From Alitta virens (taxonomy: Eukaryota > Annelida > Polychaeta > Phyllodocida > Nereididae), in NCBI GenBank assembly GCA_932294295.1, contig OW028586.1, forward strand, positions 10,383,790 through 10,447,789: a DNA stretch of 64,000 bases, given 5' to 3'. A program made the position numbers and the translations under genes. Shown piece by piece: positions 48,363-64,000 of the stretch; within the stretch, counting starts at the first letter, position 1; each line of letters starts with the position of its first letter. Below the pieces are notes generated by a model, which saw nothing but the letters and a program-made list of their open reading frames with translations, ran no database searches and was not told the origin of the DNA.

Positions 48363-48502
48363 CATGGCCAATTGTGCTACGTGCATTTTCCATGTGTTTA
48401 GATAAACGCATGGTTTTTGCCTCATTATAATTAGTTAAAAACCATGCATTTTCCATGTGTTTATCCTTCTCATGGAAAACGCACGTGGCACATTTGGCCA
48501 TG
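48363..48502. mobile_element. MITE-B copy 4
   Basis: CATGGCCAATTGTGCTACGT to GTGGCACATTTGGCCATG; left flank TA, right flank TT. It is the last clear host repeat before the virus-like element. Confidence 0.9.
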
Positions 48503-48974
48503 TTACCCATGGTCGGTTACCTGAAATTTATTTTAGGTAAAATATAGGGCAAGGCGAACGAAACTGCGTTTGCGGCATTTCAGTTTAAGGTAACCTCTAG
48601 GAGAACGAAATGATCGTTCACCTGTTAAGCTCAGGCCTGCTTAATAAGGTTGTCCAAATTCTGGATTTTTTTTTTTTTTTTAATATAATCAGTCCTGGGA
48701 CCTGTTGAAATGGTCTTAAAAGTGAGGTAGTCTTGCCTGCAGCATAATACACAATATTGTATTCAATTATTCATGATACTGGGTCCTCATAATTGGTAGG
48801 TTTCACTGTTAAAGCCACTGTGCATGTTGAGTTTGCTATGTCGACTACCGTGCAAAATTATCAGTTTTTCTACTAATTCATTTGATAAATTGTGCGTTAG
48901 CATGAAAATACAATATTAGCTTAATTGGTCTTGAGCTATTATCTGATACTCCCATTGTGTGTTTAAACTACATT
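48503..48974. other. Host flank of the virus-like element
   Basis: Poly-T at 48667-48682 and a GGTCTTAAAAGTGAGGTAGT remnant at 48711-48732; no gene. Confidence 0.4.
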
Positions 48975-49200
48975 AGTAGTAAAGGGCCGAGCTCTACAGA
49001 CGTCAAAGGAATCCACTTGACATTTGGTGAAACGGAGGTAGTAAGGTAGCAACATCAAAGGGAAACCCATTGTCTTTTGGAGAACAGGATGAAGTAGGGT
49101 AGTAATTAAATTTCACACTCCAATGCATCCGGTGAAGCTAGGGTAGCTTATGTGAAGGAAGGGTAGGTAATAAATCGCACACCTGTCAAAGTCATCACGT
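48975..49200. repeat. Candidate left terminal region with imperfect direct repeats
   Basis: The sequence starts AGTAGTAAAGGG, and Polinton termini are known to begin with AG. It then shows two clear units with a period of about 52 bp (49001-49049 and 49053-49102), both running TCAAAGG..CC..TTTGG.GAA..GTAG.GTAG, with weaker echoes at 49112-49146 and 49186-49215. It lies between the host MITE at 48363-48502 and the polymerase start at 49375, where a terminal inverted repeat should be. The partner repeat lies beyond 64000, so inverted-repeat status cannot be tested here. Confidence 0.45.
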
Positions 49201-49374
49201 CATAGGAAACCCCCAATTCTAAAAATAGAAAATCCATTGCACCCTGCTGCGATGAAGTCATTTTCTAAAAATAACTCGCCATCCTGTAGCGGGCCAGCAG
49301 GCCAGCAGGCCAGCAGGCCTGCATTGAAATCACCATCATAAAAGCGATTGGTACTCTTGTTCCTCATCATTGAA

Positions 49375-52300
49375 ATGGCAGAGAGCAGAGATGACGCTTT
49401 GATCAATGAATATTTTCAAAGTAACAATGGTCTCAGCGAAGTCTCTCAAGTTAGAGATAGATACAATCAGCTAACAACAAATGATTCAGCGTACAATGAT
49501 TTTAAACAAATGCTTCAAAATTTCACAAACTCGCACGATTTAATGCTATTCGCTCATAGAAACGATCTAACCCAAGACCCTCAGGTTAAAGATAGACTTT
49601 CTCAATTCACTAGCAATAGCAATTATCTGGTAACCGCATATGATGATTTCACACATATGATTCAAAATTTCACAAATGAACAAGATTTAATACAGTTTGC
49701 ACACAGAAACAATCTGATTGGGGATGCACAAATTCAAAGCAGACTTCAGCAGTTAAACAACCATCTTTACTGTCAAAAATGTTTCAAACAATTCACCAAT
49801 AGAGTCTTTCAAGAACTACATCAAAGCAATTGCCAAGGTAATATTCCCATTCAAACAGTCACTCATGATCCTTTTCCTGAATTCAATCAACCAGTACAAC
49901 CAGTACAACCAGTAAAACCACTACCGCATAACTGCAATGTTTGTGGTAAATCTTTCACCACTAGCTTTAAGAGGAACACACATCAAAAGAAATGTACAGG
50001 ATTCAAAAAATGCGTACAATGTCATGCACAATTTACTTCAGTTTCTTTATTCGGTGTACATAAATGTCAGGAAATGATGAAATGTCAGCACTGTAACAAA
50101 CAATTTCAAAGTTTCTATGCAAAGCAAAGACACGAACTTAAATGTCAACTTCCTAAGGGAACAAAACACAAATTTATTAGTCAAAAAAATAATCCAACTG
50201 ATCTCCAACTACTGCAAAGTCTGCAGGTACCGCAGGTACCGCAGGTACCGCAGGTACCACAGCAGACTTTTTCGTGTCCAAATTGTTGCAAAACTTTTAA
50301 GAAAAAACCCTCATTAACCGAACACATGAAAGTTTGTGAGGGAGTGTTTGACTGTCAAAAATGTAAGAAAATTTTCACCAACAGCCTAGCTCATGATTCT
50401 CACTCGTGCGAAATTAAATGTCACTCATGTCACGCCATATTCAAATCAGAAAAAAGTTTTGGAAAACATATTTGTAAAAAAACTCGAAAAAGGACACTTA
50501 CTGATTCACACAACACTGACAACACTGTGCAACCATGCAAACGAAGTTGTAATAGCGTACAAACAAATCAAACCGCAATTGTTCAGCCATGTGTTCAGTC
50601 AACCATTCAGTCAACCATTCAGTCACCTGTTCAGTCACCTGTTCAGTCAACCGTTCAGTCACGAGATGTGCTATGCGAAGTTTGTGGGAGGATTTTTAAC
50701 TCTGAAAAGAGCCTGAGTATCCATAAACGTTATCACAAAAAAAATCAAAGAATTAGATGTAGACGATGTTTAGAGGAATTTCAGGATAGACACTCATTAA
50801 ATATTCATGTAAGAGATTCTCATTTCCAACGAGGTAGAGGTCGAGCTCAAATAGTATCATTAGAAGATGAGAAATTGCAAGAATTTTACAATAGATACCA
50901 CTCATTCATTTATGATAACCACGAATTAGGGCAACCGCAAAGCTTTTATAATTATCCAGTAGTTGAAGATTTCAGCATTGAAGACCTTATGGGTTTTGCT
51001 AACGAAATATTCGATGACCAAAGCCAATCCTTTAAGTTAAATCTATCTTTTGGATCCATTTTACAACATATTGAGTCTGGAAAATACCGTTATTTCAAAG
51101 CCTATTCTAATGATCCCCTATTTGATCTACCCATTAGCATTTCAAATAGAGCAGATTTAGAGAAGCTCAGAGATCAACTGACTGAGATAGACGTTACAGC
51201 ACATATTACTAAAGAGAGGCCTTCCACGAAGTGGAAATTAGTTCTTATAACAAATGTTAGATTCTACATTACTTCAACAGGGTTCCCTTTAGGATCGGGT
51301 GAACTTCCCAAATATATCAGAAATAGTAAATCTATTATATCCCTTATACATAGTTTTAAGAGTAAAAAGAAATATGAAGACAACCTTTGTCTATTCAGGT
51401 GCTTAGCATTCCACAAACACAGAGATCTATATAAAAAGACTGAACATTTCGAAGAGAAAGTTCACAAATATTACCAAGAATTCGCAAACGCTTGCGAGCA
51501 AGATTTGGAAGGAGGAGTTGACCTGCAGTTAATTCCAGATTTTGAGAAATTTTTTCAGTTAAACGTCAACATATTTTCTTTACACGAAGATGAAACTGCA
51601 CACCCCATATTTAAATCAGGTCATAGATACGTCAACAGTATGAATTTGAATCTTTACCAGCATCACTTATCATATATCACTGATATTAATAGATATTGTA
51701 GTAAATATCAATGCTCAAACTGTGAAAAACACTTCAAAACTTTCTTCATATGTAAAAGACACAGCCAAACGTGTACATTAGCAACGAAATATCAATTTCC
51801 GGGTGGTTTTTACGATATGAAACGAAATATTTTTGAGCAGTTAGAAGAATTTGGAATAGATGTCTCCAATGATGAACGATTTTACGAATATTTTATAGTC
51901 TACGATTTCGAGGCATATTTGAAAAAAATAGAGAATGATTCGGTAGAAAATACAATGATTACAGCAGAGCACATTCCAATTAGCGTTAGTATTTGTAGTA
52001 ATGTCCCAGACTTTGAAGAAGCTCACTGTATTGTCGAACAAGATCGCGAGACGCTTGTGAAGGCAATGCTCGCATATATGACTAGAATTCAATCAACCGC
52101 GCAAGCGCTTGTTCAAGAAAAACTTAGTTTTGTAATGCAGGAACTGGAATCTCAATTGAATACTTGGAATACTGAAGTAGATGAGAAAGAAAGCTTCAAT
52201 GCCATAATGCGTACAAAAATCCAAAACATGATTGACGCATTCGAACATTATTACACTCAGATTCCAGTTTTAGGTTTTAACTCTGCAAAGTATGACATAA

Positions 52301-54786
52301 ATTTAATCAAAAGAGAAATAGCTAGATGTCTAGAATTGCACAATTCAGAACGCAAGTTTATAGTCAAGAAAAACAGTTCATACTCCTGTCTTGCTAATGA
52401 GAGTTTTAGATTCTTAGATGTGATAAACTACTTAGCACCGGGCACGAGTTATTCTAGCTTTTTAAAAGCTTTTAAAATTCAAGAACAGAAAGGATATTTT
52501 CCATACGAATTTTTTGATGATCCCTCCAAGTTAGATTATCCAGAATTACCTCCGTACGAAGCCTTCTACTCTAACCTAAAGCAATGTAATGTCCTGGAGA
52601 CATTTGAAAATTACCAATGGTTGAAAACAGTTTGGTTGAGCGAAAATATGAGTTGTTTTAAAGATTTTCTTATATGGTATAATAATTTAGATGTGACACC
52701 ATTCGTTAAAGCAGTTATGAAGCTGCAAGACTTTTATAAGGTTAAGCGAATAGATATTTTCAAAAGCTCCATTAGTGTCCCAGGAATTGCTAGGCAATTA
52801 GTTTTTCAGAGTGCAGAGAAAAATGGTGCCTATTTTTCTCTGATTGACCAAAAAAATTCGGACCTTTACTTCTCCTATTTACAGAATATAATTGGAGGAG
52901 CTTCTATTATTTTTCACAGACAAGCTCAGAGAGATAAGACATTTATTCGGGGTGGTAATAATCGGGTGAAGAGAATAATAGGATATGACGCTAATGCGTT
53001 ATATCTATACGCCTTCAGCAAAGAATTTCCAGTGGGTTCATTCATTAGAAGACACGCGAAAGATGAATTTAAACCCGTGGTGAGGGATAGATATGATAAC
53101 ATGTTCTATTGGATGGATTATTTAAGTCATAAAAGAAATCTAAAGATTTGGCATAAACGAAATGGAAATAAGGAAAAGAGAGATGGTCGTTTCTTTGCTG
53201 ATGGAGTATCTTGTTCAAATAATATAACTAAAATATATCAATACGATGGTTGCTATTTCCACCATCACGGTGGTGATTGTCCTCTAATGAATAAAAATTT
53301 ATCTGAGAAAGAAAAGAAAAAAGGGTTACTCGCGCAGAAAAGAAGACAAGATAGGAATAACTACTACAAAAAGTTAGGATACGAAGTTGAGGAAATATGG
53401 GAATGCAAATTTCTGAAAATGATTAAAGATACTCCGGACTTGCAAAAATTTGTAGAAAACCAAAGACCCAAGTTTTTCAAAAAACATAAGAAAACTCTGA
53501 CAGAAAAGGAAATTTTAGAAGCGGTGAAACGGGATGAACTATTCGGTATGGTAGAAGTAGACATCGCAGTTCCCGAAAAATGGGAACAAGGTTTCAAACA
53601 GCCGGATAACTTGACACCATACGAATATTTTAGTGAGATGTCACCGATATTTTGCACTACCGATATTCCATTCGAAGTAATAGGTGAACATATGCAAAAT
53701 TTTGCTCGTGATTCAGGAATGAATACAAAACCTAGAAGACTGTTGGTAGGAGGAATGAAAGCTAGGAAAATGCTATTTGCTACACCTTTGTTGAAATGGT
53801 ATTTAGAGCACGGTTTAGTCGTATCCAAAATTCACCAAGTCATAGAATATAACAGAATGAAGTGCTTTCAGGAATTTGTTAGTGATGTGACAGAGGCCAG
53901 GAGAGCGGGAGATAGAGATCCAGATTTATCAATAATTGCCGATTTATCAAAACTTATAGGAAATTCCGCCTATGGATCAACTATCCTTAATAAACTGAAG
54001 CAGACCGATGTTAGATATGTAGAAGGTGAGAATGAGGCTTGCCTCAAAGCTAACGAGAAAGGATTCAAATCCATGACCCAACTTTCCGATGATTACGAAT
54101 TTTATGAAATCGAATCTCAAAAAAACAAGATTAAGTTAGATTTACCAATTCAAATAGGTTTTTTCATTCTGCAATATGCCAAGTTAAGAATGTTAGAATT
54201 CTATTACGATTTTCTCTGTAAATACGTTCCTAGAGATAAGTTTCAAATGCTTCAGATGGATACGGACAGCAATTACTTTTCAATAGCAGGGGAAACATTG
54301 CAAGATGTGATTAAACCAGAACTCTTAGATGAATATAAACATAAGTTAAATGGATATTGTTCGGTTAGAGACATTGATGCTGAAACTCATTGGTTTCCAA
54401 GAACTTGTTGCCCAGAACACACTAAATATGATAATCGTTGCCCCGGGTTATTTAAACGTGAATACGAAGGTGAGATATTCTATGGACTCTGTTCTAAAAC
54501 CTATATCGTAGCCGACAAAGACCATTGTAAGTTTAGTTCTAAAGGTATATCCAAAAACAGAGTCAAAAACCCTCTAGAAATATTTAAAAGCGTTTTGGAG
54601 ACTAAGGAAAGTCGTAGCTCTACCAATGTAGGATTTATCAGTAAAAGTAATACTATTTTCACGTACCAACAGAATAGAGCCGGATTCGCTTATTTTTATC
54701 CTAAAAGGGAAGTATTAGCTGATGGTATCTCAACCAAACCCTTAGATATAATATTAGAACCGATACGAACGAAGTATTTCAGGTAA
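49375..54786 (+). CDS. POLB: Protein-primed-type family B DNA polymerase with N-terminal zinc fingers and OTU-like block
   Basis: A 1803-residue polymerase that would replicate the element. The start is the ATG at 49375; the ORF extends upstream only through non-ATG codons. Residues about 10-125 hold a duplicated unit of about 55 residues (YxDFxxMxQNFTN..DL..FAHRN). Nine CxxC..H..C/H fingers follow at about 133-483, with a tenth at 780-803. An OTU-like Cys block (D669-N-x-C672-LFRC676) pairs with a His motif (HHLSYITD from 763). Exonuclease motifs are D844-F-E846, N969..D974 and Y1102..D1106. Polymerase motifs are D1205 (DANALY), K1526..N1530-S-x-Y-G, D1629-T-D-S and S1707-K-T-Y. Catalytic residues all look present. 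A TATA-like CATAAAAG lies about 35 bases upstream of the ATG. Polinton PolBs are usually nearer 1100-1300 residues, so the N-terminal extension is long. Confidence 0.96.
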   Translation: MAESRDDALINEYFQSNNGLSEVSQVRDRYNQLTTNDSAYNDFKQMLQNFTNSHDLMLFAHRNDLTQDPQVKDRLSQFTSNSNYLVTAYDDFTHMIQNFTNEQDLIQFAHRNNLIGDAQIQSRLQQLNNHLYCQKCFKQFTNRVFQELHQSNCQGNIPIQTVTHDPFPEFNQPVQPVQPVKPLPHNCNVCGKSFTTSFKRNTHQKKCTGFKKCVQCHAQFTSVSLFGVHKCQEMMKCQHCNKQFQSFYAKQRHELKCQLPKGTKHKFISQKNNPTDLQLLQSLQVPQVPQVPQVPQQTFSCPNCCKTFKKKPSLTEHMKVCEGVFDCQKCKKIFTNSLAHDSHSCEIKCHSCHAIFKSEKSFGKHICKKTRKRTLTDSHNTDNTVQPCKRSCNSVQTNQTAIVQPCVQSTIQSTIQSPVQSPVQSTVQSRDVLCEVCGRIFNSEKSLSIHKRYHKKNQRIRCRRCLEEFQDRHSLNIHVRDSHFQRGRGRAQIVSLEDEKLQEFYNRYHSFIYDNHELGQPQSFYNYPVVEDFSIEDLMGFANEIFDDQSQSFKLNLSFGSILQHIESGKYRYFKAYSNDPLFDLPISISNRADLEKLRDQLTEIDVTAHITKERPSTKWKLVLITNVRFYITSTGFPLGSGELPKYIRNSKSIISLIHSFKSKKKYEDNLCLFRCLAFHKHRDLYKKTEHFEEKVHKYYQEFANACEQDLEGGVDLQLIPDFEKFFQLNVNIFSLHEDETAHPIFKSGHRYVNSMNLNLYQHHLSYITDINRYCSKYQCSNCEKHFKTFFICKRHSQTCTLATKYQFPGGFYDMKRNIFEQLEEFGIDVSNDERFYEYFIVYDFEAYLKKIENDSVENTMITAEHIPISVSICSNVPDFEEAHCIVEQDRETLVKAMLAYMTRIQSTAQALVQEKLSFVMQELESQLNTWNTEVDEKESFNAIMRTKIQNMIDAFEHYYTQIPVLGFNSAKYDINLIKREIARCLELHNSERKFIVKKNSSYSCLANESFRFLDVINYLAPGTSYSSFLKAFKIQEQKGYFPYEFFDDPSKLDYPELPPYEAFYSNLKQCNVLETFENYQWLKTVWLSENMSCFKDFLIWYNNLDVTPFVKAVMKLQDFYKVKRIDIFKSSISVPGIARQLVFQSAEKNGAYFSLIDQKNSDLYFSYLQNIIGGASIIFHRQAQRDKTFIRGGNNRVKRIIGYDANALYLYAFSKEFPVGSFIRRHAKDEFKPVVRDRYDNMFYWMDYLSHKRNLKIWHKRNGNKEKRDGRFFADGVSCSNNITKIYQYDGCYFHHHGGDCPLMNKNLSEKEKKKGLLAQKRRQDRNNYYKKLGYEVEEIWECKFLKMIKDTPDLQKFVENQRPKFFKKHKKTLTEKEILEAVKRDELFGMVEVDIAVPEKWEQGFKQPDNLTPYEYFSEMSPIFCTTDIPFEVIGEHMQNFARDSGMNTKPRRLLVGGMKARKMLFATPLLKWYLEHGLVVSKIHQVIEYNRMKCFQEFVSDVTEARRAGDRDPDLSIIADLSKLIGNSAYGSTILNKLKQTDVRYVEGENEACLKANEKGFKSMTQLSDDYEFYEIESQKNKIKLDLPIQIGFFILQYAKLRMLEFYYDFLCKYVPRDKFQMLQMDTDSNYFSIAGETLQDVIKPELLDEYKHKLNGYCSVRDIDAETHWFPRTCCPEHTKYDNRCPGLFKREYEGEIFYGLCSKTYIVADKDHCKFSSKGISKNRVKNPLEIFKSVLETKESRSSTNVGFISKSNTIFTYQQNRAGFAYFYPKREVLADGISTKPLDIILEPIRTKYFR
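50222..50262 (+). repeat. In-frame 9-bp repeat within PolB (QVP)n
   Basis: Four tandem CAGGTACCG/A units encode Gln-Val-Pro repeats between zinc fingers 4 and 5. A similar in-frame repeat at 50586-50660 (TTCAGTCAACC/ACCTG units) encodes Val/Ile-Gln-Ser repeats before finger 8. Both look like flexible, length-variable linkers. Confidence 0.85.
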
Positions 54787-54791
54787 AAAAA

Positions 54792-54866
54792 TTTATTATA
54801 AATATTAAAAAAAATTTATTATAAATATTAAAAAAACACAAATTTTCGCAATAAGAATAAAATAAA
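54792..54866. terminator. Overlapping convergent poly(A) signals
   Basis: PolB (+) stops at 54786 and has AATAAA at 54856-54861 and 54861-54866. The convergent membrane-protein gene (-) stops at 54878 and has minus-strand AATAAA at 54797-54792 and 54820-54815, within a duplicated AAATTTATTATAAATATT unit. The two transcripts would therefore overlap at their 3' ends by tens of bases. The signals are read directly; their use is inferred. Confidence 0.55.
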
Positions 54867-54877
54867 ATTAACAATAT

Positions 54878-55611
54878 TTATAAAGACGATTCGGCGTATC
54901 GTTTGGTTCTTGTCTGGGTGGCGTGGACGTAGGCGATAGCGGGTGGGGTAGAGGAGCGACGAGATGGGGAGTGAGCCGATGGGGAGTGAGCCGATGGGGA
55001 GCGAGCCGGGGATCTGGGACCGGGAGTGAGAAGAGTTGGGAAACTCCATCGGTGTGGGTTGGATGGGGAGATTGGGAGGGTTGGGATGGTAAATACCGGG
55101 GTATTACCCCTTACGGAATCATCTCCGGTATAGCTCCCTTCCAAGTCTCGGTTTCTGAAAAGAAAAAGGATTATTTTTGAGATATTTTTCTATATGATTG
55201 AGTAATAGTTATAAATACACACAGAATTATCCAGAATACTTGTGAAAATAAACTTACTGCTCCGTTTCCGTCGATGCATTTTGAGTAAATGCTGACAACC
55301 TCTCAGCGCAAAAGTGAACAATTTTCTTTGTCCTGGCTGCACCCTAAAAATTAGGAAAAAATATCATTATAAAACCGTAAATTGCAATGATATTCGAGTT
55401 ATCTATAAATTTATATCACCGTTAAATTCCACTAATTCGTTATAACATAACTATTTATATATAAATTCATAAAATTAGAGAGGTGAATTATTGTTTAAAT
55501 TCCACTTACGAATAGTTGAATGCTTAATACTAGCATGATCCCTGCCAGTATCGTATACCCCAGGTATAAAAGTTTAACATCAGTTGCTGGGCAGTTGCAA
55601 GTAGAATTCAT
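54878..55611 (-). CDS. Three-exon single-pass membrane protein, novel (accessory gene A)
   Basis: Predicted from splice sites and phases. Exon 1 is 55611-55510 (ATG, 34 codons, phase 0), exon 2 is 55343-55258 (86 nt) and exon 3 is 55154-54878 with the stop. Donors are GTAAGT at both sites; acceptors are TTTTTAG and CTTTTCAG; introns are 166 and 103 nt. The product is about 154 residues: a short N-terminus with two Cys in a CNC motif, a hydrophobic segment at about residues 14-34, then a tail rich in Ser, Pro and Arg with repeated SPSAHSPS units. A likely topology is N-out with a cytoplasmic tail. A TATA-like ATATAAGG lies at 55691-55684, about 75 bases before the ATG. It is convergent with PolB and divergent from the CARD gene. 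I recognise no family; function unknown. Confidence 0.68.
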
Positions 55612-55989
55612 CTCAGAGTGTGGTTCTGTAAATGCTTATTGCTGTCTATGAAGATTGTGATGCTATTTAGAAAAAATTCTGGACCTTATATTCCATTTCC
55701 AGGTGACACTACTCAACTTCAAAGTTTATTGTTTAAAGTACGCTTAACTATACGCGAGTTCATCTTAATGCAATGATACCACGATTGTTTCACACCCCAT
55801 CCATATATTCAGAAGCTACGAAAGTTGACTTAGAGTAAATTGCAATGAAACCACGACTAGGAGGGTTAACAGAAACCCTATCAGGGGGAAACCCCAGAAG
55901 CTACGATTTTAAACAGGTGCATAAAACAATTTATGGTTGGTTTACTGCATGGTTGGTTTACCTGGATGGTTGAATACAGAGTTGAACAT
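55612..55989. other. Intergenic region between divergent accessory genes, left part
   Basis: This noncoding stretch holds the gene A TATA-like box (55691-55684) and two loosely related segments, each with GCAATGATACCACGA-like and AGAAGCTACGA-like words (about 55770-55820 and 55848-55905). Repeated ATGGTTGGTTTAC and GGTTGAA words follow at 55935-55980. No ORF is supported. Confidence 0.5.
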
Positions 55990-56175
55990 ACGGTTGAAAA
56001 AGACAATTACTCATTTTTTTGGTATTATTTAGCAGGGATTTTAGTTCCCGCATTCGACGCACAGTTGAAAAGACTCATTTTTGGTGTTATTTAGCAGGAA
56101 TTTTAAAGCCCGCATTCGACGCACGGTTGAAAAGACTCATTTTTGTTATTATTTAGCGTCCACATTCGACGCACG
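55990..56175 (+). repeat. Three imperfect tandem repeats upstream of the CARD gene
   Basis: Units of about 50-73 bp (about 55990-56062, 56063-56126 and 56127-56175) each read GGTTGAAAA..GACTCATTTTT..TTATTTAGC..GCATTCGACGCAC. They lie in the divergent promoter region between gene A and the CARD gene, so an enhancer-like role is plausible; this is inferred. Confidence 0.75.
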
Positions 56176-56302
56176 TGTCCAAGCGTGCGCGCGCACCCAA
56201 AAGCGTGCCTAAGCGTGCTCAAGCGTGACCGCACGTGAGCGCGCGTGCCCAAACCTGCTCAAGCGCGACCCCCACGCGCTCTATCTAAATAAAATATTTT
56301 TA
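56168..56302 (+). promoter_or_regulatory. Candidate promoter: GCGTG/CACGTG cluster plus TATA-like box
   Basis: Within about 110 bases there are five GCGTG words on the plus strand, a CACGC, and two CACGTG E-boxes (GACGCACGTGTCC and CCGCACGTGAGC). A TATA-like TAAATAAAATATTTTT run follows at 56285-56300, some 25-35 bases before the CARD ATG. GCGTG is the core of bHLH-PAS response elements, and CACGTG is an E-box. Whether host factors use them is inference. Confidence 0.5.
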
Positions 56303-56322
56303 GTTCGAAACATTTCCTCAAA

Positions 56323-56619
56323 ATGCTCAGATGCGATCGTGATGCTTTGCGTAGGAACTTTGTAGTTTTGGTTAGAGAAGTACCTTGTACAGAAGTGCTT
56401 TCATTTCTTTATCAAGACGGAATTCTCAATCAGCAAATGGTAACTGAAATATTAGAAGAAGCACCATCGAAACGAAATTACTCCCTTTTATTTCTGCTAC
56501 AGATGCGAGGACCCGCTGCATTCGCATCCTTCCTTAACGCATTGAAGGAAACAAAAAGAACCGATCTAGCTAATCTCTTAACCAATCTCGAAGACGAATT
56601 CACAAAAGTATCGATATGA
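56323..56619 (+). CDS. CARD-only protein (caspase-2/RAIDD-like death-fold domain)
   Basis: The whole 98-residue product reads as one caspase recruitment domain: helix 1 with LRRNFVVL (residues 9-16), EVLSFLYQDGIL at 24-35, then QQMVTEIL, LLFLLQ and the hallmark RGPAAFASFLNALKETK (62-78) with a leucine-rich last helix. By eye the pattern RGPxAFxxFxxALxETK..L..LL matches CARDs of caspase-2 and RAIDD better than other death folds. No catalytic or second domain is present, so it resembles CARD-only decoys. CARDs pair homotypically in caspase-activating and inflammatory complexes; interference with such a complex is a natural guess, but activation cannot be excluded. The ATG has A at -3. Its stop overlaps the next ORF's start as ATGA. 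Confidence 0.86.
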   Translation: MLRCDRDALRRNFVVLVREVPCTEVLSFLYQDGILNQQMVTEILEEAPSKRNYSLLFLLQMRGPAAFASFLNALKETKRTDLANLLTNLEDEFTKVSI

Positions 56620-56948
56620 GTACTATGAGTACTACGAGTGATGATTTGGATTGGAACATTGCTTTGTTAAATGAAGAATTATTTGAGACAAAACCTAATC
56701 CAAAAATCCTTGTGAATCTTTTTGTTTGCATTCTGAACTCGGTATTAAGTCATACCGAATCCAATAGCCACCAAACCAATCTCTGTCAATGTCATAATTT
56801 CATCCAAACCCATAGACTCAATATTTTGGAGTGTAACATTCAAAATTATGCTTCCACTACTATTCAAACTAATCCAAATTCTTGTTGGATTATGCAAATG
56901 TCTGATAAATACAGACTCTTGAAACAGATGTATTTAAGAATAGGCTAG
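56616..56948 (+). CDS. Unidentified 110-residue ORF overlapping the CARD stop
   Basis: It starts at the A of the ATGA that ends the CARD gene, so translation by termination-reinitiation, or a hybrid transcript, is suggested. A second ATG lies three codons on. The product starts with Ser/Thr-rich residues, then an amphipathic region (LDWNIALLNEELFE), a helical stretch (ILVNLFVCILNSVLSH) and several Cys/His (CQCHNFIQTHR). I recognise no domain. The stop is followed at once by a tandem repeat array. The ORF is supported by its position, the stop-start overlap and its length, not by homology. Confidence 0.5.
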   Translation: MSTMSTTSDDLDWNIALLNEELFETKPNPKILVNLFVCILNSVLSHTESNSHQTNLCQCHNFIQTHRLNILECNIQNYASTTIQTNPNSCWIMQMSDKYRLLKQMYLRIG

Positions 56949-57100
56949 CTAGCTAGCTTGTAGCTTTTAGCTTGTAGCTTTTAGCTTGTAGCTTTTAGTT
57001 TGTAGCTTTTAGTTTGTAGCTTTTAGTTTGTAGCTTTTAGCTTGTAGCTTTTAGCTTGTAGCTTTTAGCTTGTAGCTTTTAGCTTGTAGCTTTTAGCTTG
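56949..57100 (+). repeat. 14-bp tandem array (TTGTAGCTTTTAGC)n after the 110-residue ORF
   Basis: About ten copies of a 14-mer, some with C to T in TTTAGT, begin immediately after the stop codon at 56946-56948. AGCT words occur throughout. A short (TA)n tract follows at 57111-57127. Confidence 0.92.
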
Positions 57101-57127
57101 GCTACTGAAATATATATATATATATAT

Positions 57128-57591
57128 TTGGCTCGATTTGTATTAAAAAATGTGACTCGGTGTCAACTTCCTTTCGTAAGGAGATGGTTGAAGGATCTAA
57201 ATCTCCGCCATCTCGGTGTGACAGCACCACTCATAAATGGCTGAGTCGCTTAATTGTGTACAATACGCTTCATTTCATATTCACCCACTGTGGAAGGGAA
57301 AAATCCGACCCGGGTTAGATTTAACCATCCACATCATAAAGAGGGAGAGAAAACGAGTCACAAAAAAATTTAAAAATTAAAAAAATTTAAAAAAAGGACA
57401 GATTTCAACTGTCTATATTCCAAATTATGCTCAACCGTGCTCTGCGATCTTCCCGTGATGTTGGGCGAATGTGAGAGAAGTGTTTAATAGCTGTTCACAG
57501 CTAACATTTTTTTCATAACAAACTGGCAGAGTGTCTTTTGAAAAAAAAAATCAAGTCATAATATCATTCAATCATCTTTAATATATAATAA
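57128..57591. other. Noncoding interval between convergent accessory genes
   Basis: It contains a GTGTCAACTTCC..GGTGTGACAGC segment (57152-57226), A-rich tracts at 57361-57400 and 57540-57551, and no supported ORF. It would hold the 3' ends of the CARD/110-residue transcript (+) and of gene B (-). A minus-strand ATTAAA lies just downstream of the gene B stop. Confidence 0.5.
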
Positions 57592-59001
57592 TTAAAGCCC
57601 GCTCTCTACATCTTGGGGGCGACCACGAGGCGTCTCAGCAGCGGTAGCGGCAGCAGCAGCGGTGGCGGCAGCGGTAGCGGCAGCAGCAGCAGCAGCGGCT
57701 GTCATGGACCTCGTCACCGGGCCACTCACTGTAGGAGACGGGGATGGCGCACCCACCAAGTCCTGCAGGGTTCTCGGGAGTCTCAATCCGCGTGGAACTG
57801 AAATAAAAAATAATAAACTTAATATCAGCATTTTTCCCCTATTATTAAAACTAATTTACTCTTTACAACGATCCGAGGATTCCCTGCTGGGATATCCCCC
57901 GCTGGTATGACGTCATTTTTAGGATCTCCCCAGCGGAGCCAGCGGAGCCAGCAGCGCCAGCAGCGCCAGCAGCGTCAGCAGCGCCACTCTTTACGTTGCG
58001 GAGGATAATAGAAGCTTCAAGATACCGCATCGCGCATGCGTTGTAGCGCGCAGCGTCAAGGGTATTCCCTCCCGGGTGACGTCATTTTTAGGATCTCCCC
58101 AGCAGCGCCAGCGGAGCCAGCGGAGCCAGCAGCGCCAGCAGTGTCAGCAGCGCCGCTCTTTTTACTACGGAGGAAAATAGAAGCTGCAAGATACCGCATC
58201 GCGCATGCGCGAAGCGATGCTTTTTTTAGATCTAATAATGTAAACATTAACGCGTGGGTAGTGCTATACAGTAAGACGCATAAACGTTCGGTTAATAATA
58301 AAAATTTAAATTTAAAAAGACTTACTTTCTAGAGAAGGGGGAGCCCTTCTCTTGCAAGCTTGACAGCGGCACATGAACATTATCACCCGGTGTATGATTT
58401 TCTGTAGCCATAATATCATGGAAACGGAACAGGGTGGTGGTGGAGCTTGTCTTCTGAATTGGTTGATTCTTCTCCATGTCTTCAGCAAACCGCACATAAC
58501 GCTTACATTCAACGTCAACAATCCAGCCAAAGACACAGAGAAAAATCCGAACCACCCTTCAACCTCCACATCAAACATTTCATCATCATCATCATCATCT
58601 TCATCATCCGTTTTGTCTTCATCATCCGTTTTGTCTTCAGCCACATCATCCACATCATCCATGACAACAGTTGATCCATCACCGGATTCGTCATTACACC
58701 CATAACTCCACTTCCTCAGCCGAGAGATACCACACACACCATAAAGTTCAACATGAAGATAACCTTCTAAATCAGAAGTCTTAACTCCATATCCATCATG
58801 CTCATCACTGAAGTGTACAACCAACACAGTCTCAGTCCTTCCTTCCAGAGGTAGGAAGGGCACAACATTGCCACACTTCATTACTGCATCTTCACAGATA
58901 CAGTAATTCCCCTCCAAACACAAAACCTGAGTTTGGACAAACTCAAACGAACCAAAAAACAATAACAATTCAAGCAATCCAAACATAGTGAAAAAAATCA
59001 T
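57592..59001 (-). CDS. Two-exon type I membrane protein with acidic stalk, novel (accessory gene B)
   Basis: Exon 1 is 59001-58326 and exon 2 is 57797-57592. The donor is AAA|GTAAGT and the acceptor TTTATTTCAG; the intron is 528 nt and the phases match (one base plus two). The product is about 293 residues: signal peptide at about 1-25 (a second Met at 6), small ectodomain with Cys 28, 34, 36, 43, 90 and 102, Asp/Glu-rich stalk at about 115-147, membrane span at about 150-173, then a basic tail with a second hydrophobic patch (about 195-211) ending in a Cys-rich CRCQAC motif. Exon 2 adds a Pro/Ser segment and an Ala-rich run ending ETPRGRPQDVESGL. Read unspliced, exon 1 stops four codons past the donor, giving a 229-residue form. 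No family recognised. Confidence 0.68.
57905..58215 (-). repeat. GC-rich tandem duplication in the gene B intron
   Basis: Two units (about 57910-58040 and 58078-58215) share GCGCATGCGCGATGCGGTATCTTG, CTTCTATT.TCCTCCG, a GGCGCTGCTG/GGCTCCGCTG run and GGGGAGATCCTAAAAATGACGTCA. On the minus strand both read in the same kind of frame (MRYL.ASI.LR..KSGAAD.AGAAG..GEILKMTS), although bases differ between copies. They may be alternative cassette exons, or just duplicated GC-rich DNA. Confidence 0.7.
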
Positions 59002-59746
59002 GTGCTCCTCTCCAATGAAAACTAGAGAATGGGGTGGAACTTGGATTTAGCAGTGAATTTTTCAGTCATATCACTAATTAATAGTAATAAAGATAAATTA
59101 ACTCTACATCAAAGCACATTATGCTTCTGATTAATGAACACAACAAAGACCTCCTTCTAGGATCAATACATCCTTGATCATTGGAGTGATTACACAGTAG
59201 GTGGGATTGGAGCAATATGAAATGATAAGACAAGATACCTTAATCCTTAATGAGTTTGAACCTACAGACACCAAACAGCTGTCAGCCCTATCAGTCTTAC
59301 ATCTAATCTGGGATAAGGTCAATTATGCTATGGTGGCATACCAAACCTAGACCAAACTGTGATTTGGGATAAAGGAGTTGGGTAATAGGTTTATAGCCTC
59401 AATGGATGCCTATCAAACTTTTAATCTGAAAAAACTCTTTCAAAGTTTACTGTTTAAACATAATAGCTGTATCTCCTCACCTCAGCAATTTTTTGAATGC
59501 ACTTAATGAATGTAATGCACCCACATGGGTTATATCCTCAGCAATTTTTTGAATGCACTTAATGAATGTAATGCACCCACATGGGTTATATTTTAGGAAA
59601 TGAAAGGGTTTTGGTTCAATTTATTGATCCATACCCCATTGCACACATGCACACATCACTGCATTTTTTTAAATTATGCAAACTAGGGATTTTTTCAAAT
59701 TTCACTTCAGTTGTGATTAGTCCACTACAGGAAAGAGATCACTAAC
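59002..59746. promoter_or_regulatory. Divergent intergenic region between gene B and RING-like gene
   Basis: The two genes read away from this 745-bp interval, so it should hold both promoters. It contains a 56-bp direct duplication at 59480-59591 (CAGCAATTTTTTGAATGCAC ... ACATGGGTTATAT). No convincing TATA box was seen for either gene. Confidence 0.4.
59480..59591 (+). repeat. 56-bp direct duplication upstream of RING-like gene
   Basis: Two essentially identical adjacent copies, starting CCTCAGCAATTTTTTG and ending CCACATGGGTTATAT, lie about 155-265 bp upstream of the ATG at 59747. Confidence 0.93.
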
Positions 59747-60421
59747 ATGGATGTGTGTGTAATATGTTTGGTAGATGGTGGTAAGCAATTGTTCTGCTGT
59801 AATGCCATAATTCACCACTCATGTTGTTCAGCATACATTAATAATTTCGATTTCGTCATTTATGGTGCTTTGAAATGTCCACACTGTCGTAAAGAGTGGC
59901 TTTTTGAAGAATTAAGCAAATTTTTACATGAGAATTTGGAGGAGAATCCAATGCTGGAAGCGCAGGAGAATCCAATGCTGGAAGCGGAGGAGAATCCAAT
60001 GCTGGAAGCGGAGGAGAATTCGGAGGAGAATTCGGAGGAGAATTCGGAGGAGAATTCGGAGGAGAATTCGGAGGAGAATTCGGAGGAGAATTCGGAGGAG
60101 AATCCGGAGGAGAATTCAATGCTGGAAGCTGAGGAGAATTCGGAGATAGGAATTGAGAGGGAAATGGTGGTATTAGAGGTGGATCAGCTGGAAGCTGGGG
60201 AGGGTGGAGATCCTCAGGTAAGTGTTGGATCACCACAGGATATTTTTGAAACGGAAGACTTTCAGGTAGGACCTTCAATTTATTATGACTCATCAATTGA
60301 TGAGATGGTGGTGGATTACAGCAGAGTCTCATTTCAAACCATCTCTGATGCAATGGTTAGAATTGTTAATGGTAGATTGGAGAGTGTTGAGTGGGAAGCT
60401 GATGAATTTTCGAGATTTTAA
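59747..60421 (+). CDS. RING/PHD-like zinc-binding protein with acidic EENS repeats
   Basis: A 224-residue protein. The N-terminus has Cys4, Cys7, Cys17/18, His23/24, Cys26/27, Cys44 and Cys47; the order is C4HC3-like and the last pair reads CPHC, as in RING E3 ligases. Residues about 65-135 are acidic repeats: three copies of EENPMLEA type, then about eight of EENS/EENP. The C-terminal 85 residues are acidic with several hydrophobic stretches and no recognised fold. A plausible role is a ubiquitin ligase or adaptor acting on a host factor; this is inferred from the N-terminal domain. CAG|GTAAGT at 60217-60225 is a strong donor-like site inside the ORF, so a spliced form with another C-terminus is possible. 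Confidence 0.75.
   Translation: MDVCVICLVDGGKQLFCCNAIIHHSCCSAYINNFDFVIYGALKCPHCRKEWLFEELSKFLHENLEENPMLEAQENPMLEAEENPMLEAEENSEENSEENSEENSEENSEENSEENSEENPEENSMLEAEENSEIGIEREMVVLEVDQLEAGEGGDPQVSVGSPQDIFETEDFQVGPSIYYDSSIDEMVVDYSRVSFQTISDAMVRIVNGRLESVEWEADEFSRF
59936..60130 (+). repeat. In-frame repeats of the acidic region of the RING-like gene
   Basis: A 24-bp unit (GAGAATCCAATGCTGGAAGC plus GGAG) occurs three times, and is followed by about eight copies of the 12-mer GAGGAGAATTCG and one more ATGCTGGAAGC unit. All keep the frame, encoding EEN-containing acidic repeats. Confidence 0.95.
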
Positions 60422-60529
60422 CTAGTTTTGGGGTATTAGTTCCAACTATTTATTACTTTTTAAAAAGTGATAAACAGTTGTATCCAACACTGACCACGTG
60501 GAGGTTCCCCAAAGTACAGTGTCACTAGT

Positions 60530-60740
60530 CCTAAATATTATTTTTTGGTGTTATGATGTTTACAGATTTCTCAATCCTGCCAGTGACATCATAACTTTTT
60601 TTATTTTATTTTTTTTGGTGTTATGATGTTTACAGATTTCTCAATCCTGCCAGTGACATCATAACTTTTTTATTTTATTTTTTTGGTGTCATGATGTTTA
60701 CAGATTTCTCAATCCTGCCAGTGACATCATAACTTTTGAA
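60530..60740 (+). repeat. Three tandem units, each with a 10-bp inverted repeat
   Basis: Units of about 65-75 bp (about 60541-60598, 60610-60668 and 60680-60737) read GGTGTTATGATGTTTACAGA ... CCAGTGACATCATAACTTTT. In copies 1 and 2 GTTATGATGT pairs with ACATCATAAC, and copy 3 has GTCATGATGT (one G-T pair). A loop of about 33 nt and T-rich linkers follow. They sit between the convergent stops of the RING-like gene (60421) and the protease (60825). A 3'-end, insulating or replication role is possible but unproven. Confidence 0.9.
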
Positions 60741-60768
60741 AATTGAAATTTTTTTTTTTTTTTGCAGT

Positions 60769-60774
60769 TTTATT
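60769..60774 (-). terminator. Poly(A) signal for the structural cassette
   Basis: A minus-strand AATAAA lies about 50 bases past the protease stop at 60825. It is the first such signal downstream of the capsid/protease block and could end a shared late mRNA. Confidence 0.5.
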
Positions 60775-60824
60775 TTTTCAGTGCGTTATTTTGACTTATG
60801 GGTAACTTAATACCGCGACAGAGG

Positions 60825-61259
60825 TCAGATAACGCTCTCATACATTAGAGAATATATAAAACTATCAAGATTCACATTTTTCAACAAACGAACGATAGAA
60901 GAAAATTCTATTCCCTGACTACGCAAAATAGTATAGAATATACAAAATTTACCGCAGTCATCGGATTTAAGGTTTTGAAGAGCGATATCATTGTATACGT
61001 ACCTACCGCACTTTTTAATTAAAAACTTGTGCCAATAAGAATGATAGTTTTCCGGGTTTTCACCCAAAGAATCAAAAAATTCGCAAGTATGATTATTCAC
61101 AAATACAGCAACCCAATGAGTGCCTGCACTATTGGCTTCATCGGTATTCAATATAGCTATAGTGTTATCTTTGATTAAATGAATATGGTTAGCAGGGTAA
61201 ACCCCACCAAACTCTGGATAGTGTCTACGTAAAATGTTAGTTATTTCCGAAGTGTTCAT
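60825..61259 (-). CDS. PRO: Adenovirus-type (Ulp1-like) cysteine protease
   Basis: A 144-residue protein with the compact catalytic layout of adenain/Ulp1-type proteases: GTHWVAV with His48-Trp49, FFDSLG with Asp63, Gln95 for the oxyanion hole, and SDDCGKFC with nucleophile Cys102. In related elements and viruses this enzyme matures capsid proteins inside the particle; that role here rests on the family and on its place directly downstream of the capsid gene. Its ATG overlaps the capsid-gene stop as ATGA, so it would be translated by reinitiation or from a separate mRNA. Length is short but normal for Polinton proteases. No breaks. Confidence 0.9.
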   Translation of the reverse strand: MNTSEITNILRRHYPEFGGVYPANHIHLIKDNTIAILNTDEANSAGTHWVAVFVNNHTCEFFDSLGENPENYHSYWHKFLIKKCGRYVYNDIALQNLKSDDCGKFCIFYTILRSQGIEFSSIVRLLKNVNLDSFIYSLMYESVI

Positions 61260-62575
61260 TGTGTAGTAATGTTTCGTGCAGCATCGATACTCAACAAGCC
61301 TTTAAATTTCCCATACAGAAAGACTACTATTGAGTCTTCCAGAGCTTTTGAAAATCTAAGTTCGAGTTTGGTTGTTCCTGTGTGCGAAATTGGAAGCAAC
61401 TCTTCAAAATTTTCTCTATTCCCTAGATCGAAGCAGAATATTGTGTATCCTCTATGGAAATCTTCGAAAGAAATGATAGAGTCTGGGTTCAGTCTGTGAA
61501 GTCTCTGCCAAGCCTCTAAATAATGAGATTGGTAAGCTGTATCACCGAATTTAACTTGAAGTGGTTTAGCTGGGAGAGAAATGTTGTTTAAATACAATCC
61601 TATCTCACTGATGTTAAAGTGACTAAAAAAATATGGATTGTGTTGGAATGAACCGCTGACAGCTGCAGATTTAGCCATACAAACGATTAATTGTTCTGGG
61701 CATTCGGTTCCGAATAAATCATTAATCGTAGCCACTTGACTACCTTTAGCTATAGTGTGAGTTCGCATTTTTGAATTGATATAAGGATATTGAGCTGATT
61801 TAAGTTTTAGGGCATCACTGATAGCAACACCAACTGCTGGGTCTAAGGTAACATGACATAACACTAGCTTAGCATCCAATATTTTAATATTAAATTTTTG
61901 TGTTAATTCGGAAGAGAGCAAGGAAAATTCGGGTGTAGAAGGCCAAAATTTCAATCCAATGTTGGTGTTGTGTAATAATAACCTTTTCTGTTTCATGAAA
62001 TCCACTCCAATAGATCCAGTCATAACAAACTCTTGCCCCTGGTTAACAAACTTTGTTCTTTTTTTCAATGCAGGGTTCCCATCCGTAACGGCATTATCAG
62101 TTCCTGCTACTGCCTTGAAATTACTACAAGTATTTATCGCAGTACTTAGATCTTTGGTGAATAATATTCCCAGTTGTTCGTCTACTTTACTCGTTAAAAG
62201 AGTATCCAGCATATATTTATAAGGATAGCAGTAAGTAGGGATATCATTAGATATCGATTGATGTTGTAAACTGAGGTCAACTTTCTGAAACATTGATGCG
62301 ATTAAACAATTTGTAGGTGCTACATCACCGGTAGCATCATATTTCTCCAATGATTCAACAAATTTGATAGGATCATTCTCCCCTATAACAATTTTACACC
62401 TAAGTTGAATGTGTGAACGGGAAAAGTCGATAAAATTTTGTGAAGTTACACTAAATTCCACACATCCGCTGGATAGTTGTGAGATTGGAAGATGTTCTAT
62501 CATTTGAGATTGCGATATTGCTTTGTTGGTAGGTTGTACGCAAAAAAGGTTGAGAGAATCATCGTGAGCTTGCAT
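61256..62575 (-). CDS. MCP: Candidate major capsid protein (F54H12.2-like family)
   Basis: A 439-residue protein with no signal peptide or membrane span. The N-terminal pattern LNLFCVQPTN (8-17), then IEHLPISQL, VEFSV and the SMFQKVDLSLQ block followed by CYPYKYMLDTLL, matches my memory of the animal-genome proteins annotated F54H12.2-like. These accompany Polinton/adintovirus-type elements and are thought to be capsid proteins. Its position between the core-like and protease genes fits a double jelly-roll shell protein, but no fold can be proved by eye. It starts one base after the core-like stop (TAA-A-ATG) and overlaps the protease start by four bases. No breaks. Confidence 0.76.
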   Translation of the reverse strand: MQAHDDSLNLFCVQPTNKAISQSQMIEHLPISQLSSGCVEFSVTSQNFIDFSRSHIQLRCKIVIGENDPIKFVESLEKYDATGDVAPTNCLIASMFQKVDLSLQHQSISNDIPTYCYPYKYMLDTLLTSKVDEQLGILFTKDLSTAINTCSNFKAVAGTDNAVTDGNPALKKRTKFVNQGQEFVMTGSIGVDFMKQKRLLLHNTNIGLKFWPSTPEFSLLSSELTQKFNIKILDAKLVLCHVTLDPAVGVAISDALKLKSAQYPYINSKMRTHTIAKGSQVATINDLFGTECPEQLIVCMAKSAAVSGSFQHNPYFFSHFNISEIGLYLNNISLPAKPLQVKFGDTAYQSHYLEAWQRLHRLNPDSIISFEDFHRGYTIFCFDLGNRENFEELLPISHTGTTKLELRFSKALEDSIVVFLYGKFKGLLSIDAARNITTQ

Positions 62576-62576
62576 T

Positions 62577-62870
62577 TTATCGTCTCCTTCTTACAACCTT
62601 TTTCTTAGTCTGTCTAGTTTTAGTGTTCTTGCTCCGGTGTTTAGATCTAGACTGAGGCGATTTTTTCTTTTTACTCGATTTTATAGCTTTGTTAATGATA
62701 GAGCGTGACATGTTATCTTTCTGTGCGGCTGCAGTTACAACTTGCAAACCTTTGCCCGATTGAGTAGTTGAATCGTTTACCACAAATATTTTTTGATTTG
62801 GTAAAATTTTTCCATCAATCATTGCAGCGTAATGCTTTTTCCAACTATCATAATCATTAATAACTGACAT
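62577..62870 (-). CDS. Small basic core-like protein
   Basis: A 97-residue protein. The first 60 residues are mixed (YDSWKKHYAAMIDGKILPNQK); residues about 65-97 are almost all Lys, Arg, Ser and Thr, ending in a run of arginines. This resembles the DNA-condensing core proteins or protamine-like tails of adenovirus-type virions. Neighbouring capsid genes support a virion-core role, but composition is the only direct evidence. Its start lies inside the last codons of the penton-like gene (14-base overlap). Confidence 0.6.
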   Translation of the reverse strand: MSVINDYDSWKKHYAAMIDGKILPNQKIFVVNDSTTQSGKGLQVVTAAAQKDNMSRSIINKAIKSSKKKKSPQSRSKHRSKNTKTRQTKKKVVRRRR

Positions 62871-63300
62871 TGTGAAAACGAAGTGTTACGTTCAGTTCCG
62901 AAAGTGATAGTGGTGGTGATGTGGTTTCTCTGGGTTTTATATATATTCTGAAGCGATTGAGTTGTCCTTGAATAGTTTTCAATTTAATCGGGCGTACGAA
63001 TTCTGTGTGAGAAACCTTCAACCCTGGTAATTGAAAAACTCGCAAGACTGGTGACAATTTTCCGTATAGAAAAGATTCCTGACACACATCGCTAAAAATA
63101 TATATCTCTTCTTTGGTTCTTTCGTTAATTCTACATCTAATGTCTAGCAATTCCACATAAGATTCCGCGCAGAGGTTGATATTTCTATCTAGTTGCACTA
63201 TAAAATCATTAGGATTATTGTCAGTGAAAATATTTTTACTATCTGTACTAGAAGCATACACCACAAACGATGTCATGATTAAGAATGTTCTTTTTCTCAT
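62857..63300 (-). CDS. Penton-like minor capsid protein
   Basis: 147 residues from the first ATG. The pattern VYASSTDSKNIFTDNNPNDF, then VQLDRNINL and VELLDI, is the characteristic start of the small jelly-roll penton/minor-capsid proteins of Polinton-like elements, as I recall them. The rest is predicted beta-rich. The start is uncertain: a TATA-like AGTATATTAC at 63320-63311 would put transcription near 63285, downstream of the first ATG, which favours Met9 at 63276, just before the conserved VYAS. The gene leads the minus-strand cassette and overlaps the core-like gene by 14 bases. Confidence 0.68.
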   Translation of the reverse strand: MRKRTFLIMTSFVVYASSTDSKNIFTDNNPNDFIVQLDRNINLCAESYVELLDIRCRINERTKEEIYIFSDVCQESFLYGKLSPVLRVFQLPGLKVSHTEFVRPIKLKTIQGQLNRFRIYIKPRETTSPPLSLSELNVTLRFHNVSY

Positions 63301-63310
63301 TCACCGCTGT

Positions 63311-63395
63311 GTAATATACTACCGGGTACTTGTACGCAAGAGTGCACCCCAGGGTTGCAGCCCTGGGTTGGAACCCCAGGGTTGGAGACCTGGAT
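63311..63395 (-). promoter_or_regulatory. Candidate late promoter with palindromic CCCAGGG words
   Basis: Upstream of the penton-like gene, CCCAGGGTTGCAGCCCTGGG and a following CCCCAGGGTTGG unit form inverted and direct repeats (63348-63385), with the TATA-like element nearer the gene. The inverted repeat CCCAGGG/CCCTGGG could form a 7-bp stem with a 6-nt loop. Promoter function is inferred. Confidence 0.45.
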
Positions 63396-63404
63396 GTACC
63401 AGTT

Positions 63405-63628
63405 CTTAGTCTAGGTCACAAAACTAGGTCACAAAACTAAGTCACAAAACTAGGTAATAAAACTAGGTCACAAAACTAGGACACAGGTCACAAAACTAGG
63501 TCACAAAACTAGGCCACAAGACTAGGTCACAGGTCACAAGACTAGGCCACAGGCCACAAGACTAGGTCACAAGACTAGGACACAAGCCTAGGTCACAAGA
63601 CTAGGTCACAAGACTAGGTCACTAGTGT
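63405..63628 (+). repeat. 13-bp tandem array (AGGTCACAAAACT)n between integrase and structural genes
   Basis: About 15 units, drifting from AGGTCACAAAACT to AGGTCACAAGACT and AGGCCACAAGACT, extend up to and into the integrase stop codon (TAG, minus strand, at 63616-63614). They contain many AGGTCA words at 13-base spacing, plus AGGTCACAGGTCA where two half-sites are one base apart. Confidence 0.93.
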
Positions 63629-64000
63629 TGCTTTTTGGAGATGTTCTATTTCACTTTTTTTCATCCATGTCGAGTGTTTCTTAGGCCAACCTAACCATTT
63701 AACCAACACTTTATCTCGTTTCCTTTTAAGTATTTTTTCTATGAGGTAAGTCTGATTATCATCAACTACCACTTTCTGCAGCTCGTTTTCTTGGAAATGC
63801 CCGTTTAAGACTTCGTTTTTCAAGTCTTTTACTACATAGATTGGTTTGATATCTCTCATAATTCTATCAGCAATGATGAAATGTTCTCTTGTCCACGATT
63901 CGTCAAATGCTCTCATGAATGGGTGTCTGACTACACTTATCCTAACCGTATCGTGTATATTAAAACGAAAATCGGTTTGTATCTTATCAGGTTGCTCCGT
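63614..64000 (-). CDS. INT: Integrase C-terminus: SH3-like region plus chromodomain (partial)
   Basis: The reading frame is open to the right edge, so only the last 128 residues are visible. The first part (FNIHDTVRIS..PFMRAFDESWTREHF..ADRI) is the SH3-like C-terminal domain seen in retrovirus-like integrases of Polintons. The end (YLIEKILKRKRDKVLVKWLGWP..HSTWM) is a chromodomain, with Tyr and Trp residues at aromatic-cage positions. The core with the DDE triad lies beyond 64000. In this family the enzyme inserts the element, and the chromodomain is thought to steer insertion towards marked chromatin. The stop lies inside a 13-bp tandem array, so the array may have eroded or set the C-terminus. 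Confidence 0.93.
   Translation of the reverse strand, partial: TEQPDKIQTDFRFNIHDTVRISVVRHPFMRAFDESWTREHFIIADRIMRDIKPIYVVKDLKNEVLNGHFQENELQKVVVDDNQTYLIEKILKRKRDKVLVKWLGWPKKHSTWMKKSEIEHLQKATLVT

Follow-up and report, generated by a model that had tools for sequence, protein, structure and literature searches.

A stretch of 64,000 nucleotides from the annelid Alitta virens, called the window throughout this text (G000:C14:10383790-10447789), carries a small gene whose product is a caspase recruitment domain (CARD) and nothing else. The CARD is almost certainly a gene of the Polinton/adintovirus-like element in which it lies; it is under few non-synonymous changes and is conserved in place across three families of such elements. 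By analogy with CARD-only proteins known from viruses and hosts, we propose that this Polinton-borne, CARD-only protein acts as a competitor of a complex of the caspase-2/RAIDD type, an explanation which, taken whole, is modestly favoured. Published work is cited by PMC number, for those parts of each paper that were available.

The CARD-only gene and the element that carries it

The initial annotation, made from the letters alone, had described a complete CARD of 98 residues with no other domain, and this description stands. The profile search matches a CARD (PF00619) at 3.8e-10, with 40.1 bits for a cut-off of 23.9, over positions 1–84 of a profile of 85; one copy from each of the classes B, C and D, defined below, likewise exceeds the cut-off. 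The predicted structure has six helices (model confidence, pLDDT, 75.6), and CARDs from the PDB head both the Foldseek and the VIA lists of its fold matches, none of which has a Foldseek E below 0.001, the Z values lying in a range that the tool deems unsafe for helical bundles; besides, the ranking of folds does not give the binding partner. The likeness to RAIDD/caspase-2-type CARDs is supported too: the best PDB sequence match is the RAIDD CARD 3crd (9.8e-7), and the CARD probably resembles that of caspase-2 as well. The protein database holds two relatives of the CARD, at 98% and 90% identity (among 3 candidates). No relatives were found in IMG/VR for the CARD, for the capsid-like protein (searched as a single protein and as a 14-row alignment) or for the C-terminal 728 amino acids of the DNA polymerase, nor in GTDB contigs for the capsid-like protein; PHROGs gave nothing useful and Rfam no match.

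The element is 19,393 bp long, from 48975 to 68367 on the window's scale, its right end lying 4.4 kb past the window (4.7 kb of the flanking contig were read). Its terminal inverted repeats differ at a single position and a target-site duplication flanks it (Table 1): it is a complete Polinton/adintovirus-like provirus, with both ends and the duplication, and these ends together with its genes bear out the carrier named at the outset. The N-terminal part of its PolB has weak zinc-finger matches; an OTU-like motif and the PolB motifs A, B and C are apparent in the protein. PF03175 is not matched directly by this PolB in the Pfam profile search; the protein aligns at 8e-11 to the PolB of a second Polinton clade described below, which matches PF03175 at 3.9e-45. 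By its motifs and this alignment it counts as a Polinton PolB, with protein priming putative. The integrase, judged by its sequence, is of the retrovirus-like type of Polintons, since it joins the chromodomain inside the window to an rve core past it (2.7e-9 in L009:1-738). Also past the window, at L009:2094-2768, lies an ATPase-like open reading frame (ORF), with a Walker A motif seen by eye and a Pox_A32 match below the cut-off (E 0.0015). The capsid-like gene has 21 relatives in the protein database and 97 match rows in the genome. Its product has no Pfam match above the cut-off, and a PDB match to a designed PPR protein (2.9e-4) was set aside as implausible, so that the name of this gene rests on gene order (PMC8097293).

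PolB reads along the + strand; the genes for the protease, for the capsid-like, basic and minor-capsid-like proteins and for the integrase read along the - strand, which is the layout of most vertebrate Mavericks (PMC8097293). More generally, the element shares with Mavericks/Polintons and adintoviruses the inverted repeats, the 6-bp duplication, the AGTAGT end, PolB, the rve-chromodomain integrase, the protease, the ATPase-like gene and the gene order (PMC8097293, PMC11071296). Adintoviruses are defined by a PolB with an N-terminal OTU-like domain, a BLAST-recognisable hexon and an integrase with a C-terminal chromodomain (PMC11071296); the element has the chromodomain integrase and a putative OTU-like motif.

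The CARD gene had been placed between the replication and capsid blocks, and so it is: it starts 1.5 kb 3' of PolB, its stop overlaps the start of the next frame, ORF2 (ATGA), and the capsid-like gene is beside it in most of the elements scored, as detailed below.

The stretch directly before the gene (56016-56322) contains five GCGTG and two CACGTG motifs and is possibly a candidate promoter region; 62-bp tandem repeats and a GC-rich stretch lie upstream of the CARD at 56016-56270. Between PolB and the membrane-protein-like ORF (54787-58311), the CARD, ORF2 and 58036-58332 are the only + strand ORFs of at least 90 amino acids with a start codon; the last is in repeat-rich sequence, and simple repeats are plentiful (a 14-bp unit at 56954-57100, GCAGCG runs).

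Copies of the gene in the host genome

The host genome searched (671,116,069 bases in 23 contigs) contains at least 150 matches to the CARD: 150 of 220 candidates were scored, all at E<=2.4e-23, and the counts are lower bounds. Among them 146 have no stop in the matched stretch and 30, the window copy included, encode a protein identical to that of the window. Identity alone was used to divide them into class A (79 matches), B (28), C (19) and D (24), and a fragment at 62% (C13:8697946) counted as B may for that reason be D. A similar search with the capsid-like gene gave 97 rows representing 96 elements (96 of 1256 candidates scored), and in 88 of these 96 a CARD is found within 12 kb, in convergent orientation. 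Conversely, a scored capsid gene is present within 12 kb of 88 of the 107 class A and B CARDs and is missing for 19 of the 107, among the matches scored. Four of the eight CARD-less capsid matches were viewed: in L093 the element ends inside the CARD, at L095 there is no element sequence at that place, and in L094 and L096 PolB is present and the CARD absent from the expected stretch, which fits internal deletions.

In other families of the same clade the CARD is found in the same place after PolB. Three class B copies that were read have a PolB at 72% and a CARD at 63–65% identity, with a relative of ORF2 next; four class C copies have a PolB at 62–65% and a CARD at 52–53%, and the capsid identity between classes A and C is 60%. 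ORF2 has relatives at 98% (P0025) and 75% (P0026), and at 87% in L018 and 39% in L011; its model is all-helical with low confidence (pLDDT 60.6), and it has no PDB sequence match. Class A shows the stop-start overlap of the CARD with the next ORF, and class C does so by position; as a general trait it is limited, the next ORF of two class B copies starting 19 nt after the CARD. The idea that class C and class D share a PC4 protein, encoded in class C by the ORF following the CARD, was dropped, as this ORF gave neither a Pfam match nor an alignment.

Ratios of non-synonymous to synonymous changes (dN/dS) for the CARD are 0.25 between the window and L018, 0.28 between the window and L019, and 0.33 between two class B copies; pN/pS ratios pooled within classes are 0.33, 0.40, 0.17 and 0.23. 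The former come from a set of 49 CARDs picked for spread out of the 150, with the identical-protein copies L001-L008 unused, and the latter omit A_L030, A_L031, A_L032, A_L033 and C_L020. These ratios are probably upper estimates for an active gene, because evolution in active elements and decay after insertion are mixed in them. The CARD is under few non-synonymous changes and conserved in place across three element families. That it would be a chance ORF, or a host exon caught in or beside the element, can be neglected: no point in its favour was found, and against it the CARD is situated between the inverted repeats, accompanies the capsid gene in 88 of 96 scored elements, has low dN/dS and recurs with the element.

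The gene is also present in a second, remote clade of Polintons. The three class D CARDs viewed in context all lie in other elements, whose copies are about 99% identical to each other, with inverted repeats of about 446 bp (99.3%) and a probable duplication GATATC. These elements have the PolB mentioned above, an rve-chromodomain integrase, a PC4-domain ORF (PF02229, 2.5e-7), membrane-like and RING-like ORFs, and an ORF that is ATPase-like by look, with no notable Pfam match. Compared with the window element, identity is 22% for PolB, 25–26% for the capsid protein, 36% for the integrase C-terminus and 58% for the CARD. Their CARD is near one end of the element, far from their own PolB, and this bears on another role that might be imagined for the gene: the fixed place after PolB in three families and the stop-start overlap in classes A and C would fit a CARD recruited to the element's own assembly, replication or regulation, no longer meeting host CARDs. 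We consider such an internal role very improbable, for the arrangement in the second clade indicates that the link to PolB is not needed.

The identities between classes suggest exchange. CARD identity is 53% for A-C versus 58% for A-D, while capsid identity is 60% for A-C versus about 26% for A-D; thus the CARD places D as near as C, which the capsid does not. In the tree D joins C (98/93), and a tree in which A, B and C form a group that excludes D is weakly rejected (p-AU, from the approximately unbiased test, 0.032), this grouping being suggested by the capsid and PolB comparison and the test run after the tree was seen. The CARD gene has probably moved between Polinton clades: transfer is the simplest reading of these sequences, the alternative being two captures of similar host genes.

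Origin and proposed function

Stretches of the host genome presumed to encode host CARDs were picked by eye, 27 in number, among the best 150 of 272 candidates; three proved to be class D relatives, leaving 24. A second tree was built with 14 element, 20 presumed host and 3 reference CARDs, omitting Dronc and the long-branched host rows L077, L082, L083 and L087, which were kept in the first. The element CARDs group together (92/99; support in 86% of 200 bootstraps), apart from the 20 presumed host CARDs (24 recovered). Capture of a host gene, as initially proposed, is supported by this grouping only as far as the unity of the element CARDs goes, and a donor was not identified. None of the constrained trees joining the elements with host L091 (p 0.39), caspase-2 (p 0.23) or host L065 (p 0.07) was rejected, so that no single host donor is picked out; among the ORFs listed in the 6 kb around L091 no caspase domain was noticed, by eye only. 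The caspase-2-type CARDs of oyster span two exons (PMC7836458); the element CARD is one open frame. The host genome also has tandem-CARD open frames, apparently two paralogues, at C4:49022521-49023171 (552 codons) and C4:40897485-40898306 (613 codons). We infer that an animal CARD of the caspase-2/RAIDD type was the source of a single capture, and that recombination afterwards carried the gene between clades; for the wider reading that animal Polintons have a dedicated death-pathway gene of this type, captured a single time and then exchanged as a module between clades with capsids about 26% identical, we would put the chances as even.

CARDs work by binding other CARDs, and a protein consisting of a CARD only could therefore do nothing but add to CARD complexes or subtract from them. 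The CARD of RAIDD is attached to a death domain and that of caspase-2 to a protease; the element CARD stands alone. That it interferes with some host CARD pathway is quite probable; that it inhibits a target of the caspase-2/RAIDD type is only slightly favoured. The free element CARD would occupy the CARD-CARD interface through which a caspase-2-like initiator caspase is recruited by a RAIDD-like adaptor. The protein-primed replication of viral DNA would raise DNA-damage and infection signals and, these being blocked, the cell would not be killed before particles are made. It is the likeness to RAIDD and caspase-2 that points to the caspase-2 platform, which responds to DNA damage, as a possible target; the step from a CARD to a block of caspase-2 is one of analogy. 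In adenovirus, E1A sensitises cells via PIDD and caspase-2 (PMC5086486).

The nearest analogues are the small CARD proteins of DNA viruses: the vCARD of ranaviruses (that of frog virus 3, FV3, and the GIV-CARD of grouper iridovirus) and the CARDs of lymphocystis and cod iridoviruses, all of which appear in our comparison as fold matches only, in the viral library. GIV-CARD has 91 amino acids and is likewise CARD-only; it is reported to lower caspase-8 and caspase-9 activity and apoptosis (PMC4457926), and FV3 lacking vCARD to trigger more apoptosis (PMC4974522). Unlike the RAIDD/caspase-2-like element CARD, GIV-CARD is most like proteins of the caspase-1/ICEBERG type (PMC4457926); moreover these iridovirus CARDs belong to large DNA viruses of vertebrates, whereas the element CARD is part of an integrating annelid Polinton with many genome copies. 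In a marine invertebrate virus, the cockle iridovirus protein BiIV1_006R contains a viral CARD resembling bivalve sequences, but it combines CARD and RHIM, contrary to the CARD-only gene of the Polinton (PMC12452177). The human CARD-only proteins ICEBERG, COP and INCA differ in being products of host genes of the caspase-1 family.

Several observations weigh against a competitor of the caspase-2/RAIDD complex. By structure, the Apaf-1 CARD and not that of RAIDD ranks first. The target might then be another CARD pathway, that of an innate sensor or adaptor (NLR, RIG-I/MAVS-like, Apaf-1-like or Bcl10-like), with inflammation or antiviral signalling as its output; the tandem-CARD frames of the host (C4:49022521/49022929, C4:40897485/40898067) would provide candidates, a CARD is reported to act in the induction of inflammation by an Apaf-1-like protein of lancelet (PMC11747288), and FV3 without vCARD is more sensitive to interferon (PMC4974522). 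We hold this unlikely, if worth keeping in view: the sequence likeness favours RAIDD and caspase-2, and in the tree the tandem CARDs belong to a group (100/99) separate from the element CARDs.

Some viral CARDs do not inhibit: E10 of equine herpesvirus 2, the best fold match in the viral library (TM-score 0.68, E 0.22), is an NF-kB activator. Unlike the element protein, this herpesvirus protein has 311 amino acids and is more than a CARD. In addition, of 43 distinct element CARDs no fewer than 41 retain the acidic positions 19, 32, 42 and 45 and the basic positions 10, 51 and 62; the 24 host CARDs, a far more varied set, retain them less often. This allows for selected contact surfaces; but both charged sets are kept, as a polymerising CARD needs, which fits such a CARD as well as a blocking one, and the 43 are close relatives within four classes, so that their likeness says little on surfaces. 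One may thus imagine a promoter, whose two charged faces seed CARD filaments and activate caspases or NF-kB, for egress or for the exclusion of competitors. This appears rather improbable, since the viral CARD-only proteins GIV-CARD and FV3 vCARD are reported to be anti-apoptotic and an integrating germ-line element would pay the cost if the cell is killed.

The other adverse points concern the history of the gene. RAIDD, caspase-2 and host L091 (C1:21468393) meet the element group at a fork of 84/79 from which no nearest relative stands out, L091 having a branch of 1.7, so that the phylogeny proposed at the outset recovers the element group without naming its closest kin. Dronc, included in the first tree, sits within the element group there with a branch length of 2.44, a placement that we read as an artefact. 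Neither the donor gene nor a worm caspase-2 or RAIDD was identified among the 24 presumed host CARDs, a sample from which two-exon CARDs would escape. CARD identities between classes are nearly even (53–65%), and how the classes branch within the element group is for this reason weakly supported. Lastly dN/dS reaches 0.54 between L018 and L019, and the between-class values of 0.15–0.24 correspond to a saturated dS of 1.4–2.6, not computable for A-D.

Other features of the element and meaning for Polintons

The remaining genes of the element are listed in Table 1. The membrane-protein-like ORF has no Pfam match; its counterparts are at 95% in L022, 42% in L019 (a diverged class A copy) and 26–28% in other families, where PolB is at 62–72%, as might be the case of a surface protein under host pressure. 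The RING-like ORF has no Pfam match above the cut-off (zf-RING_2, E 0.13); it contains 12-bp and 24-bp tandem arrays at 59938-60117 and is 89% identical in L022, a copy with a capsid at 100%. A 100-bp inverted pair immediately to the left of the element (45953-46052 and 48404-48503, 93% complementary, 2.35 kb apart) is probably a host repeat.

Table 1. Features of the window element and of the second-clade elements (window coordinates unless stated)
Feature	Coordinates	Strand	Remarks
Part of the element inside the window	48975..64000		
Target-site duplication TACATT, 6 bp	48969..48974		second copy directly after the right end of the element, past the window
Left terminal inverted repeat, 222 bp	48975..49196		starts AGTAGT; 99.55% identity to right repeat
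PolB-like DNA polymerase	49378..54786	+	1802 aa from chosen Met
CARD-only gene	56323..56619	+	98 aa, single open frame; Pfam CARD
ORF2	56616..56948	+	110 aa, no assigned function; start overlaps CARD stop (ATGA)
Membrane-protein-like accessory ORF	58312..59001	-	229 aa; acidic stretch, hydrophobic segment; by eye
RING-like accessory ORF	59747..60421	+	224 aa; internal tandem repeat; by eye
Adenain-like (Ulp1/C5) cysteine protease	60825..61259	-	PF02902 3.6e-6, PF00770 2e-5, both over cut-off
Capsid-protein-like gene	61256..62575	-	439 aa; putative major capsid protein by position
Small basic protein	62577..62870	-	97 aa; adjoins capsid-like gene in other families too
Minor-capsid-like ORF	62857..63300	-	147 aa; name by gene order; kept in other families
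Integrase, C-terminal part with chromodomain	63614..64000	-	Chromo 9e-6; rve core continues past the window
Right terminal inverted repeat	68146-68367		in L009, outside the window
Second-clade element copies	L016:1760-9901, L024, L025:1-1665		G000:C4 about 19214360-19234065

Viral CARD-only proteins are already known from iridoviruses; one borne by a Polinton appears new within the open-licence literature. Among open-licence papers, without their supplements, none had both "caspase recruitment domain" and "Polinton", and none that reports a CARD from a Polinton, Maverick or adintovirus came to light; in the text available, the words caspase, CARD, death domain, apoptosis and Bcl are absent from the main text of PMC11071296, as are apoptosis and death from PMC8097293. 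Annelids and Polintons would thereby be added to the few hosts and viruses in which a viral CARD stands alone.

Whether Polintons/Mavericks are infecting viruses or transposons is a long-standing question, particles not having been observed (PMC8097293). A conserved gene whose sole evident business would be the host death pathway provides selective evidence for an infection stage of Polintons, and the question of its binding to the caspase-2/RAIDD-type CARDs of the worm gives a simple handle on their lifestyle. The finding suggests, by analogy, that these elements interfere with the cell-death switch of their host, and it suggests the exchange of modules between Polinton clades. If this is true, Polintons contend with the cell death of their host in the way that infecting viruses do, and Polintons of different kinds come together in one and the same cell.
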